DNA of 64,000 bases, taken from NCBI RefSeq assembly GCF_000013045.1, contig NC_007677.1, positions 1,736,001 through 1,800,000 of the forward strand. The letters run 5' to 3'. Below, piece after piece: positions 6,110 through 29,757 of the stretch. The number at the start of each line of letters is the position of its first letter. The first letter of the stretch is position 1. The notes below the pieces were generated by a model. That model saw nothing but the letters and a program-made list of their open reading frames with translations. It was not told the DNA's origin and ran no database searches. Position numbers and translations under genes: made by a program. This DNA is from Salinibacter ruber DSM 13855. Lineage in GTDB: Bacteria; Bacteroidota; Rhodothermia; Rhodothermales; Salinibacteraceae.

Positions 6110-7231
6110 CTACGCCGGCCCCAGCTCGCGAAGCAGCCGGCGCGTGATGGCGTCGGTGAGAAGGCGGCCGCGGTCCGTCAGGGCCACGCGGTCCGGATCC
6201 TCGTGGATGAGCCCGCGTCGCCGGAGGCGGCGAAGCGTGTCGGCCTTCCGGTCCCGGAGCCGAAGGTCGTACCGGTCGGCCAGGGCGTTCAGGTCCAGCC
6301 CCGCCTGGGTGCGGAGACGGAGGAGCATGTACTCGCGGGCGAGGGCCGATGTCGACAGCGTCTCGTCGTGGGCCACAGGGGGGGCGTCGGCCTGAAGTCC
6401 CTCCACGTACGCCGTCAGGTCCGCGACGTTCGACCACCGCCGTGCTGCCGGAGACGGGGGAAGATCGGGCGCCCAGAAGCTCTCCGCGCCGGGGCCGAGC
6501 CCCAGGATGGACCCGTGGGCGTAGACGTGCTCCTGGTGGAGGGACCGGTGACCCGGCCGGGCGAAGTGGGTCAGCTCGTAGGGGACGTAGCCCTTGGCCC
6601 GGAGAAAGGTGAGGGCGAAGGCCAACTGGTCGGCGCGCTTCTCCGCGTCGCCCGTGTCCAGCTCGTGGAGCGTGAGGTGCGGGACGCCCAGCGAGACGGC
6701 CCGGTGCAGGCTTGCCTTCCAGCCGGCTCGCGACTGGCCCGCGCCGCCGAACACGAGATCCACGGAAAACTGCCGGAATCCGGCCCGACGCACCCGCCGA
6801 ATGCTGCGGGCGAGGTCGTCGGCACTGTGGGGGGCCCCCACAGCGGTCAGGTCCTCCCCGACGAACGACAGCCCTTCGATGCTCAACCGCGTAACGCCCA
6901 GGCGGCGAAGGTGAGACAGATACCCCGAGGAGGCGTCGGCCGGGTGCAGCTCCACGGTCACCTCGTCGAGCGCCGTCGGCTCCACGACTCGACCGAGCGC
7001 CCGAACGAGGGGGCGCAGGGCCCCGGGGCGGCAGAGCGAGGGGCGGCCCCCGCCCACGTAAAAACTCCGGATCGGCACGCCTTCCAGAAGCGAGTTGGCG
7101 TGCCGGTCGATCTCGCGGGCGAGCGCAGCTGCCAGGGCAGAAGCATCGGGTGTCGGGCTGACGACGGTGTACGCGTCGTCGTAGGGCCGGGGGGCTGCCC
7201 GGAACGGCACGTGAACGTAGAGGCCAGCCAC
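6110..7231 (-). CDS. HemW-like protein lacking the radical-SAM cysteines
   Basis: 373 aa from a GTG at 7231. The overall sequence follows the HemW/HemN-like radical SAM family: LYVHVPF at the start, SFYVGGGRPSL (usually GGGTPS), VTVELHPADA, RLSIEGLSF, FSVDLVFGGAGQ, and the C-terminal HemN_C-like winged part. HemW normally has C-x3-C-x2-C directly after the PF; here residues 11, 15 and 18 are Arg, Arg and Asp. Without those ligands a 4Fe-4S cluster cannot be held in the usual way, so radical chemistry is unlikely. It may bind heme or act as a chaperone; that is inference. It lies 10 bp after the voltage-sensor-like gene. Confidence 0.85.
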   Translation of the reverse strand: MAGLYVHVPFRAAPRPYDDAYTVVSPTPDASALAAALAREIDRHANSLLEGVPIRSFYVGGGRPSLCRPGALRPLVRALGRVVEPTALDEVTVELHPADASSGYLSHLRRLGVTRLSIEGLSFVGEDLTAVGAPHSADDLARSIRRVRRAGFRQFSVDLVFGGAGQSRAGWKASLHRAVSLGVPHLTLHELDTGDAEKRADQLAFALTFLRAKGYVPYELTHFARPGHRSLHQEHVYAHGSILGLGPGAESFWAPDLPPSPAARRWSNVADLTAYVEGLQADAPPVAHDETLSTSALAREYMLLRLRTQAGLDLNALADRYDLRLRDRKADTLRRLRRRGLIHEDPDRVALTDRGRLLTDAITRRLLRELGPA

Positions 7232-7241
7232 GGCGGACGGG

Positions 7242-8273
7242 TCATTCGGGGGAGTTGGCGAGCGGCTCCACTTCTTTCCAGCGTCGGATTTGCACGTGGT
7301 CCTTGATGACGTCCAGGGACTGAAGCACGACGGACTGGGCGAGTTGGTTCAGGCGGCGGTCGTACTTCGGGCTCATCAGCGCGTCCGCCGAGATGGAGGT
7401 GACCTGTGTGATGGCCTGGTCGTTGTCGAACGAGCACACGTCGGTCACCATCCGGTCCACCACGTTGAACACGATGTCGCTGATGGCATTTTCGAGGAGG
7501 GAGGCCACGGGCCGCCCCACCCCGGGCAGGGCGGCGAGGGTGCCAATCTCGCGGTTCCGCTGTACGGCATCCTCGATGACGCCGTCGAGGTACTCGTGGA
7601 AGTCGTCCTGCTGGTGGTCGTAGGCAACCGCCGTGGCCTCCTGCAGGCGGTGGGTCACCGCTTCGATCAGGGCCTCCCGCTGGGGGGCAATCACCTCGCG
7701 CCCGATGCGGGTGGTCACCTCCTGGCTCGTCCGGATTTCCTCCTGTAGGCCCTCGATAATGCGGACCGTCACGCGGTCGCTAATTTCTTCCAGGACGATG
7801 TCGCGGTACTTCTCGAACGTCCGGTAGAAATAGGTCTCTCGGAGGTCGACCAGGCCGGTCCGCTGCAGCTTCGGAATCATGGCGACGAGCCGCAGCAGCC
7901 GCAGCGAGCGGAGCGACCCGACCGGAATGCAGCCGAGCACGTCGTACCAGTGCACGAACGGGTAAAAGAACCAGCGGTGATAGCGCTGCCGATAGATGGC
8001 AAGCCCCCAGCGCACGAGAATCTCGACCACGAAGATTGAGACGAACGCGAGGTCGTAGAGCAGAAAGTGCTGGTGGATCGTCTGGTCGTACCAGGTGTAT
8101 AGCGCCGGGACGTAGTTCTCCATTTGCGTCTGGACGATCGGGCTGGCGAAGCCCCAGTCCACAATGAGAAGGGCGAGGTTGGCGACGATGAGGGCCATCA
8201 TCACCACGTCCACGACAAGGCCCAGCGTTTCGCGCGCGGTTCGATCGGCCATGGTGGCGAAAAAGGCTTGCAT
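7242..8273 (-). CDS. Voltage-sensor-like membrane protein without a pore domain
   Basis: 343 aa from the ATG at 8273. Four N-terminal membrane segments resemble the S1-S4 voltage sensor of ion channels: S1 about 18-40, S2 about 71-93, S3 about 104-118 with Asp111 (WYDVLGCIP), and S4 at 121-138 with Arg every third residue (R122, R125, R128 in SLRSLRLLRL). No S5-P-S6 pore follows; the rest (about 200 aa) is hydrophilic and helical, with a segment (LPGVGRPVASLLENAISDI) that may touch the membrane. It may be a sensor, a proton path or a channel subunit. It is cotranscribed with the HemW-like gene. Confidence 0.7.
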   Translation of the reverse strand: MQAFFATMADRTARETLGLVVDVVMMALIVANLALLIVDWGFASPIVQTQMENYVPALYTWYDQTIHQHFLLYDLAFVSIFVVEILVRWGLAIYRQRYHRWFFYPFVHWYDVLGCIPVGSLRSLRLLRLVAMIPKLQRTGLVDLRETYFYRTFEKYRDIVLEEISDRVTVRIIEGLQEEIRTSQEVTTRIGREVIAPQREALIEAVTHRLQEATAVAYDHQQDDFHEYLDGVIEDAVQRNREIGTLAALPGVGRPVASLLENAISDIVFNVVDRMVTDVCSFDNDQAITQVTSISADALMSPKYDRRLNQLAQSVVLQSLDVIKDHVQIRRWKEVEPLANSPE

Positions 8274-8368: not shown

Positions 8369-9544
8369 ATGCTTGATCTTCGACAGCTCCGGGACCAGCT
8401 CGACGATTTTGCGCAGCACCAGACCGACCGGACGAGCCGGCGGGCGGCACAGCGGGACCGGGCCGAGGCCCTGCTCCGGGTCTGCCACGACCACTGGCGG
8501 GCGGTGCGGGAGGCGGTGGCCACGGCGCAGCCCCGTCGTCTCGTGGCCCAGATGCGAGAGCCGCCCGCCGCCGTGCACGCGCCTCCGGAGCGCCCGTCGC
8601 CCATCACGGTCGTAGCGACCGACGGGTCGCAAATCTATCCGGACCGCCACGTGGAGCCGCCCTTCTTTCTGTTAAATGTAAGTCAGGTCGCATTCCAGTA
8701 CGGCACGACTGAAGACGCGCACCTCGACGCGGTTCCGAGCCTGCAGTTTCGGGAGGGGGTGGATGGCCGCTTCGAGGCGCGCATCGAGACGATCACCACC
8801 GAACTGGTCTCGGCGCTCCGCGACGAACTGGAACTGGGGTCCCTTCTCGACGCCGCGACCACGGCCCGCGTGGCGGACCGCCCCCTCGTGGCCCTGGCCG
8901 ACGGCACCCTCATTCGGTGGATGGTTCGGGGCATGGACCACGACGCCCTCGAAGACGAGCTGATCGCCCGGTATACGGAGCACCTGGAGGGCTTCCGGGA
9001 CGCGGGCCTCGCCCTGGCGTCCTACGTGAGCATGCCGGCGAGCACCGAGGTCGTGAACCTGCTCCGGTTCGTGGGGGGCGACCTGGAACCCGAGCCGCCG
9101 GTGGGGACGGAGGTCTCGACCGAGCCCCGCCTGGACGGCGTGCTCGACCGCCATGTTCTGGACATGGTGCTCGATTCTGGGGAGCGATCGGCCGTCTTCG
9201 GGTCGGCCTCGCACATTCAGGGCGAATACCCGACCGGGACGGACATCTCGTTTTTCTACGTGAACGTGCCGGGGGCGGGTGGGGGTGAGATCGGGCGCGT
9301 GGAGGTGCCGCGCTGGGTCGCCGAACAGCCGATGCTTCTGGAGCACGTGCACGCCACGGTCCTCCAAGAGTGCGAGAAAGGCGAGGGGTATCCGCTCGCG
9401 CTGTCGGAGGCGCACGAGCAGGCGGTGGTGCGGGCGTCGGAGCGTGAGGCATTTTTTCGCCTCGTGGAGCGGCGTCTGCGACGGGCCGGGCTGGGGCCAA
9501 TCGGGTCGCGGAAGCGACGTTCGAAGCAGCGGCCCCGAGTTTGA
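8369..9544 (+). CDS. NurA domain nuclease
   Basis: 391 aa. NurA proteins are 5'-3' nucleases that in archaea act with the HerA helicase in DNA end resection. The NurA metal motifs are visible as ITVVATDGSQIYPDRH (first Asp) and PLVALADGTLIRW (second Asp), followed by a SYVSMPASTEVVNLLR segment and a C-terminal AHEQAVV helix. No HerA gene is nearby. It is divergent from the voltage-sensor-like gene with 95 bp between starts. The family call is sound; a partner is unknown. Confidence 0.85.
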   Translation: MLDLRQLRDQLDDFAQHQTDRTSRRAAQRDRAEALLRVCHDHWRAVREAVATAQPRRLVAQMREPPAAVHAPPERPSPITVVATDGSQIYPDRHVEPPFFLLNVSQVAFQYGTTEDAHLDAVPSLQFREGVDGRFEARIETITTELVSALRDELELGSLLDAATTARVADRPLVALADGTLIRWMVRGMDHDALEDELIARYTEHLEGFRDAGLALASYVSMPASTEVVNLLRFVGGDLEPEPPVGTEVSTEPRLDGVLDRHVLDMVLDSGERSAVFGSASHIQGEYPTGTDISFFYVNVPGAGGGEIGRVEVPRWVAEQPMLLEHVHATVLQECEKGEGYPLALSEAHEQAVVRASEREAFFRLVERRLRRAGLGPIGSRKRRSKQRPRV

Positions 9545-9714
9545 CCCCTCGTCGCGCAGGCCCCGGTGCTGATTCAGACGTGCGGCCGTGGCCTTGCCCC
9601 TCCGCACGGGGCAGGAGGGGCAGTCGTGCCGGACCGTGCCCAACTCCCGTGCGAGTTGCGCGTTTGGCGGAAGTGCACAGGGCTCCTTCTTTTCTCCAAA
9701 GCGCCAGGTTCCGC

Positions 9715-10830
9715 ATGCACACCGTCGTCGAGTCGATTGCTACGGGCAACCCTTCCTTCCGCAAGCCCCAACCGGAAACGGCCGAGTTTATGCAGCAGAT
9801 CGAGCGCCTGCCGGAGGCCCTGCGGGCGCGTCTGCCGTCGCTCTACGAGCAATCGGCGATCGACTACCGGTACTCGTGTGTGGACGACTACGGGGAAGAC
9901 GACCCGGAGGCTTTTACCTTCTTTCCGGAGAACTGGTCGCTCGACCCGGCCCCGTCCACCCGGGAGCGGAACGAGAAGTACAAGGAGGCCGCCATTCCGC
10001 TGGCGGAAGACGTTGCCGGTCGGGCCCTCGACGGGGCCGACACGGAGGCGGACGAGATCACGCACGTGGTGGCCGTCAGCTGCACCGGCTTTTTCGCCCC
10101 GGGGCTCGACATTGAACTCGTCAAGCGGCTCGACCTGCCCGCCGACACGGAGCGCACCTTCATCGGATTCATGGGGTGCTACGCGGCGTTCAATGCCCTT
10201 CGGGTGGCCCACAGCTTCTGCCAGAGCCAGCCGGACGCCCGGGTGCTGGTGGTCTGCACGGAGCTCTGCACCCTTCACTTCCAAATCGACGACACCCTGG
10301 AAAGCGTAGTCGTCAACTCGCTTTTCTCCGACGGCGCGGCGGCCACGGTCCTCTCGGCGCGGTCGGACCGCGAGGCGCGCGGCCGGATGACGTACGTCGA
10401 CGGCCGGAGCCGCCTCGACGACGACTCGATGGAAGACATGACCTGGGCAATCGGCAACACGGGATTTCTGATGGGGCTCTCCTCGCGGGTGCCGGATGTG
10501 ATCGCCGACCACCTACCGGGATACGTCGATGGGCTCCTCGGGGCCAACGACCGGACCCCCGACGAGATGGACTTCTGGGCCGTCCATCCGGGCGGGCGGG
10601 CCGTGGTGGAGCGGGCCCAGGACGTGCTCGGCCTCGCGCCTAGCGACGTGCAGCCCAGCCTGGAGGTGCTGCGGCGCTACGGCAACATGAGCTCGCCGAC
10701 CGTTTTGTTTGTCCTGAAGCGCATCTTCGAGCAGGCGGCGCGGGGCGACGGGGCCCCTCCGGAGCGGGGCGTGGCCATGGCCTTCGGGCCCGGCCTTACG
10801 ATCGAGGGGGCGCTCTTTGAGCGGGCGTAG
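9715..10830 (+). CDS. Type III polyketide synthase (chalcone/stilbene synthase family)
   Basis: 371 aa from the ATG at 9715. These thiolase-fold enzymes extend an acyl-CoA starter with malonyl-CoA and cyclise it to pyrones or resorcinols. The full Cys-His-Asn triad is present: C155 in FMGCYAAFNALR, H291 in WAVHPGGRAV and N324 in YGNMSSPTVLFVL. HVVAVSCTGFFAPGLD and AMAFGPGLTIEG are further family segments. The usual bacterial companions (methyltransferase, oxidase) do not follow; the next gene is convergent. Product unknown; an alkylpyrone or alkylresorcinol is the usual outcome in bacteria. Confidence 0.95.
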   Translation: MHTVVESIATGNPSFRKPQPETAEFMQQIERLPEALRARLPSLYEQSAIDYRYSCVDDYGEDDPEAFTFFPENWSLDPAPSTRERNEKYKEAAIPLAEDVAGRALDGADTEADEITHVVAVSCTGFFAPGLDIELVKRLDLPADTERTFIGFMGCYAAFNALRVAHSFCQSQPDARVLVVCTELCTLHFQIDDTLESVVVNSLFSDGAAATVLSARSDREARGRMTYVDGRSRLDDDSMEDMTWAIGNTGFLMGLSSRVPDVIADHLPGYVDGLLGANDRTPDEMDFWAVHPGGRAVVERAQDVLGLAPSDVQPSLEVLRRYGNMSSPTVLFVLKRIFEQAARGDGAPPERGVAMAFGPGLTIEGALFERA

Positions 10831-29477: not shown

Positions 29478-29757
29478 GCCGGGGTGGCGGAATTGGTAGA
29501 CGCAACGGACTTAGACAAATGAGTGCTGGGGCGGAAACGCCTCACGTAGATCTGCTCAAAGTCAGGGAAGCCTTTTGACTGGTAATCCTGAGCCAAGCCC
29601 GACTTTGGGAAGGTGCAGAGACTTGACGGGCAGCACCTACGTCCGGCCGGATACGGTGAAGAGAAAGTCCAGACCACGCCCCACCAATGAAAATTGGAGT
29701 GGTACGAAAATCCGTTGGGCCTTGTGGCCCGTGTGGGTTCGAGTCCCACCCCCGGTA
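29478..29757 (+). tRNA. tRNA-Leu(UAA), interrupted by a group I intron
   Basis: The exons are 29478-29512 and 29707-29757. Joined, they give acceptor GCCGGGG/CCCCGGU (first pair G-U), D stem GCG/CGC, anticodon stem ACGGA/UCCGU with loop C-U-U-A-A-A-A (anticodon UAA), a long variable arm GGGCC-UUGU-GGCCC, and T arm GUGGG-UUCGAGU-CCCAC with discriminator A. The long variable arm and anticodon identify leucine. The CCA end is not encoded (ACCG follows). The intron lies between anticodon bases U34 and A35, the same place as in cyanobacterial and plastid tRNA-Leu(UAA). Confidence 0.95.
29513..29706 (+). ncRNA. Self-splicing group I intron, 194 nt, in tRNA-Leu(UAA)
   Basis: P1: exon ACUU (29509-29512) pairs with GAGU (29521-29524), placing a U-G pair at the 5' splice site. 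P2: GGGGCG/CGCCUC (29528-29533/29538-29543) closed by GAAA. The conserved core is seen as AAUCCUGAGCCAA (from 29584), GGUGCAGAGACUUGACGGG (29612-29630) and GAAGAGAAAGUCC (29658-29670). P7: GACUU (29620-29624) with AAGUC (29665-29669). P8: CACC (29634-29637) with GGUG (29655-29658). A P9-like stem with a GAAA-type loop precedes the last base, G29706. All this is as in the small tRNA introns of subgroup IC3. No homing endonuclease is encoded. Confidence 0.94.

Follow-up and report, generated by a model that had tools for sequence, protein, structure and literature searches.

A group I intron in the tRNA-Leu(UAA) gene of Salinibacter ruber, probably gained within the genus

The tRNA-Leu(UAA) gene of Salinibacter ruber, on the forward strand at positions 29478–29757 of the window (the whole 64,000-nucleotide stretch of DNA that we analysed), contains a 194-nt group I intron between U34 and A35. 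Judged from its sequence, this intron very probably splices, and it was probably gained within the genus Salinibacter, fairly recently. It is of a known kind and sits in a lineage in which such introns are common. The final G of the intron is at 29706, the 3′ exon opens with A35-A36-A37-A38 and the joined exons form an 86-nt tRNA-Leu with anticodon UAA. An earlier note, made from the letters alone, had given coordinates that proved exact to the base (Table 1), and its insertion site at U34/A35 of this gene is borne out, as is Salinibacter as the host. The host genome comprises 3.59 Mb and is made up of two contigs, of which the larger measures 3,551,823 bases. A consensus scan for a promoter or terminator at the locus gave no match.

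Table 1. Exons, intron and intron helices of the S. ruber tRNA-Leu(UAA) gene, in window coordinates.
Feature	Position	Strand	Evidence or remark
5′ exon of tRNA-Leu(UAA)	29478..29512	+	sequence; 3′ end is C32-U33-U34
Group I intron, 194 nt, without endonuclease gene	29513..29706	+	RF00028, own model R1, covariation
P1: C32-U33-U34 (29510-29512) with guide GAG (29521-29523)	29510..29523	+	U34-G wobble at the 5′ splice site
P2 stem-loop	29524..29548	+	compensatory change in 9/10 pairs
P3 (29552-29557 with 29628-29633)	29552..29633	+	6/6 pairs compensatory, 100% of cells paired
P4 (29562-29567 / 29586-29591) and P5 (29571-29572 / 29581-29582)	29562..29591	+	alignment
P6 and P6a	29592..29614	+	alignment
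P7: 29620-29623 GACU with 29666-29669 AGUC	29620..29669	+	guanosine-binding helix, pseudoknotted with P3
P8 and inner stem	29634..29658	+	alignment
P9 hairpin	29685..29696	+	compensatory change in 4/4 pairs
3′ exon of tRNA-Leu(UAA)	29707..29757	+	sequence; A35 to discriminator A73; CCA only partly encoded

We aligned the S. ruber intron with 30 other tRNA-Leu(UAA) introns from other Salinibacter, Bacteroidota, Proteobacteria, one plasmid and phages (n = 31). Across this set, 96.7% of cells were paired in a 49-pair group I structure that includes the P3/P7 pseudoknot, and 34 of these pairs, some of them in P3 and in P7–P9, had compensatory changes. None of 500 shuffles reached the observed values for pairing and covariation; the sliding controls lean towards the structure, because most of it was derived from the same alignment. 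The core of a group I intron is thus present, with P3–P8, the P3/P7 pseudoknot and covariation. P7 was paired in 99% of cells and is nearly invariant, with a compensatory change in one pair. Both splice-site features were found as well: P1 (CUU/GAG) and its U29512-G29521 pair at the splice site are invariant in the 31 introns, and the final G is in place. All of the elements that the earlier note had named (P1, P2, P7, P8, P9 and the final G) are there, and so are P3–P6, which it had not. Single-sequence folding energy was mildly better than that of shuffles (z −1.8); the evidence for the fold is covariation, and folding energy alone is not decisive. The small size and the host gene would fit subgroup IC3, a putative assignment.

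The covariance-model check proposed in the earlier note gave an end-to-end match to Rfam RF00028 at 59 bits (E 7e-14), above the curated cut-off of 50 bits, and together with the covariation this confirms the group I identity. A routine scan would therefore pick up the intron; at Rfam's sensitivity, RF00028 had no further match elsewhere in the 3.59-Mb genome. Our own covariance model, R1, gave 194 bits, a score that is not independent because the intron is among the 31 from which R1 was built. ARAGORN with default settings found no tRNA in the window, as the intron causes it to miss the gene. When introns were allowed, it placed a split tRNA at the locus with wrong boundaries in the S. ruber genome, and in the S. 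altiplanensis orthologue (L021) it reported Leu(taa) with a 194-nt intron. The intron accounts for the lack of a tRNA-Leu(UAA) in what a standard tRNA finder lists for the S. ruber genome.

The intron is kept in four related genomes at 93–99% identity, with matching flanking DNA at 84–96%. Following a suggestion of the earlier note, we searched the tRNA-Leu(UAA) genes of other Salinibacter and found the intron in one clade and not in its sister. On a species tree of the genus built on one gene, PhoH, the intron-bearing clade consists of the source genome of S. ruber (G000), G191, G434 and G195; the sister clade (G437, G440 and G441) is without it, and so are G340, G435, G436, G305 and G428. 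Across the order Rhodothermales, many genomes have a tRNA-Leu(UAA) gene without an interruption. The S. altiplanensis genome G195 ties intron-bearing and intronless loci together, since its downstream genes are common to the S. ruber window and its upstream genes match the intronless loci of G340, G435, G440, G441 and G305, a match confined to roughly 5 kb of upstream DNA and dependent on this one bridging genome. The joined 86-nt exons are 94–88% identical to uninterrupted tRNA-Leu(UAA) genes of the Salinibacter family, and at most 86% identical to the exons of intron-bearing genes in other groups. Taken together, the clade pattern, the shared neighbourhood and the host-like exons are most simply read as a gain of the intron alone inside the genus. 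It would have entered the resident tRNA gene in an ancestor of the S. ruber and S. altiplanensis clade, possibly by homing from an endonuclease-bearing relative, by reverse splicing or by recombination with an intron-bearing tRNA gene.

The earlier note had offered very old origin or transfer, and the patchy presence in the genus favours a gain over very old origin. Old vertical inheritance, in which the intron was present in the family ancestor, was cleanly lost several times and is ancient in Salinibacter, seems unlikely to us. It would account for the U34/A35 introns that are also found in tRNA-Leu(UAA) of the family members G325, G439 and G442, and a common origin of the tested Salinibacter Leu introns was not rejected (AU p 0.45). 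Against it, the introns of G325 and G442 are 79–82% identical to that of S. ruber, and alphaproteobacterial introns reach 86%; by a hand count on the PhoH tree, it also requires about five precise losses versus three gains. From these comparisons, separate gains in the S. ruber, G325/G439 and G442 lineages appear more likely than a single gain followed by repeated loss.

Donor trees place the Salinibacter ruber-clade introns in a clade of their own on a long branch. The tree of all tRNA intron types is affected by long branches, and in a Leu-only tree the Salinibacter clade takes a different position; we therefore dropped any assignment of a donor. The AU test rejected a constraint that joined Salinibacter to Alphaproteobacteria alone (p 0.004), a result that says little, as the same constraint also bars the gammaproteobacterial, betaproteobacterial, phage and plasmid introns nested among those of Alphaproteobacteria. 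The trees contain no cyanobacterial introns, and a cyanobacterial probe gave no match against plasmids. We also set aside as probable contamination a tRNA-Leu intron in G235 (Rhodothermales; L012). It matches an intron on a Robiginitomaculum MAG contig (L154), with both branches at 0.00, and nests in Alphaproteobacteria; G235 has another full-length, uninterrupted Leu tRNA match, which is not necessarily UAA.

The earlier note knew of no such introns in this phylum, a view that does not hold: RF00028 introns occur in 29 of the phylum's 394 genomes, and the Leu-family model matches 41 of the 114 genomes of the order; the introns seen in the phylum interrupt tRNA-Leu, tRNA-Arg(UCU), initiator tRNA and others. 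Among the papers searched, none describes this intron in Salinibacter. We scanned bacterial genomes for the U34/A35-type intron pattern, deliberately excluding the TGAGCC form, which we take to be the cyanobacterial one. The pattern was found in at least 118 places, and in 72 of the first 80 of these the joined exons make tRNA-Leu(UAA). Among the matches listed, most are in Alphaproteobacteria; a few come from Bacteroidota, Gammaproteobacteria and Betaproteobacteria, and one record each bears the label Gemmatimonadaceae or Actinobacteria. The alphaproteobacterial tRNA-Leu(UAA) introns (for example in Bradyrhizobium, Sphingomonas and Rhodobacteraceae) share the site and fold of the S. ruber intron and are as much as 86% identical to it at aligned positions, whereas the Salinibacter ruber-clade introns stand apart from them on their long branch. 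In one family of the order (L005, L008-L010, L013-L015, L023, L073-L075, L077-L081), a single genome can have as many as three group I introns in tRNA genes, the hosts being initiator tRNA, tRNA-Lys and, with insertion after position 36, tRNA-Arg(UCU).

The cyanobacterial intron interrupts the same gene at the same U34/A35 position, and is small and usually without an endonuclease gene. It is reported to occur in most cyanobacteria, a distribution explained there by one acquisition followed by losses (PMC4476775). The Salinibacter intron, which we liken to it by description and not by sequence, differs in its patchy presence within a genus.

The S. ruber genome has a second tRNA intron, outside the window. 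Its tRNA-Arg(UCU) gene (G000:C1:22797-23082; L279) contains a 210-nt group I intron after U34 that scored 104 bits with the Leu model R1 and was missed by the RF00028 search; this intron likewise explains the absence of tRNA-Arg(UCU) from the output of a standard tRNA finder. The Arg(UCU) introns of S. ruber and of the order resemble the Leu intron in being group I introns of the anticodon loop, and that of S. ruber shares the position after U34, yet it is distant and forms a separate long branch. It is present in G191, G340, G435, G441 and G305 and absent from G195, G434 and G325, so that the Arg and Leu introns follow different patchy patterns in the genus. Relatives of the Arg intron, found in G428 and G439, contain a gene for a PD-(D/E)XK endonuclease; at L332 1098-1556 and L336 1602-1988, tRNA-Arg(UCU) introns of Salinibacter relatives code for such an enzyme (PDDEXK_5). 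In Beggiatoaceae, tRNA-Leu-TAA and tRNA-Arg-TCT are interrupted by introns called putative group I and left untyped (PMC4853749). The interruptions in these Gammaproteobacteria thus affect the same pair of tRNA genes as in S. ruber, a likeness drawn by description.

As the earlier note had said, no endonuclease gene lies inside the S. ruber Leu intron, whose 194 nt leave no room for a homing endonuclease. The earlier note's statement confining the movement of the intron to reverse splicing or recombination is too narrow. Since relatives of the intron carry HNH genes, it may also have homed and then lost an endonuclease. Two viral introns, that of L266 among them, have an HNH gene inside them, as does the Bacteroidota chromosomal intron L030; two of these three HNH matches are just under Pfam's cut-off. 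Intron-bearing tRNA-Leu(UAA) genes are found on viral contigs (L245-L262, L264 and L266-L272, with L266 at 9095-9797 and L271 at 7091-7772). The intron of L253 is close to phage tail genes, and a tRNA-Leu(UAA) with an intron of the same class is also present in the 735-kb record of an uncultured phage. Outside its HNH insert, the L266 intron is 93–96% identical to the intron on a Schleiferiaceae contig, whose other genes are bacterial. HNH-bearing phage tRNA-Leu(UAA) introns might seed bacterial tRNA-Leu(UAA) genes across phyla, with the Salinibacter intron as one landing that has since lost its endonuclease, a scenario that we regard as doubtful. No phage intron is closest to that of Salinibacter, which leaves a phage route into this genus as no more than a possibility.

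That an entire foreign intron-bearing tRNA-Leu gene replaced the resident one is very unlikely. Such genes do occur on phages and plasmids, and the viral contig and the Schleiferiaceae chromosome have nearly the same intron and exons, but the S. ruber exons are host-like and the neighbourhood is shared with intronless relatives. Both point again to entry of the intron alone.

Among other mobile elements, Gordonia phage Daredevil (NC_048021.1; L265, 41300-42570) has an unannotated group I intron of the same family that scores 152 bits with R1 and adjoins an apparent tRNA 3′ half. The E. coli plasmid LR890263.1 (L263 2492-2708) carries a whole intron-bearing tRNA-Leu(UAA) gene, and two further E. 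coli plasmids (L341 and L342) have a 94-base match to such a gene. All three matches adjoin aac(3)-II and tmrB, and 1268 plasmid records, mostly from Enterobacterales, match that intron. The plasmid intron may mark a chromosomal origin of the aac(3)-II/tmrB resistance segment.

In the splicing that we predict for S. ruber, the transcript would fold into a P1–P9 ribozyme, and free guanosine held at P7 would attack the U-G pair of P1 and cut the chain 3′ of U34. U34 would then attack after the final G, joining the anticodon loop as CUUAAAA. By homology, the tRNA would be finished and able to read UUA only once spliced. No second tRNA-Leu(UAA) was found among the 42 tRNA genes that an Rfam tRNA search detected in the genome, a list from which tRNA-Ala(UGC) and tRNA-Ile(GAU) are missing; the four other tRNA-Leu genes (anticodons GAG, UAG, CAA and CAG) are uninterrupted. 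With no other tRNA-Leu(UAA) gene found, splicing should be needed for reading UUA. The earlier note had held that an uninterrupted copy elsewhere would make this gene a pseudogene; the lack of an intact copy in the genome fits a functional tRNA. Among the 17,161 codons of 43 long open reading frames, which were chosen from the window by length alone, 6 are UUA; the tRNA is probably essential, yet seldom used. Codon use this rare might allow the loss of the tRNA to be tolerated, but a decayed or inactive intron, and hence a tRNA pseudogene, is scarcely credible when no other UUA-reading tRNA was found, the core, splice-site pair and final G are intact, and the intron is conserved no less than the DNA on either side.

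A 2014 review placed all phage introns then known in protein-coding genes (PMC3984707); contrary to this, phage-borne tRNA-Leu introns are a possible vehicle of spread. The S. ruber intron extends the classic ‘ancient’ intron to a case in which a gain can probably be placed inside one genus, and this would open the movement of an intron into a probably essential tRNA gene to study.
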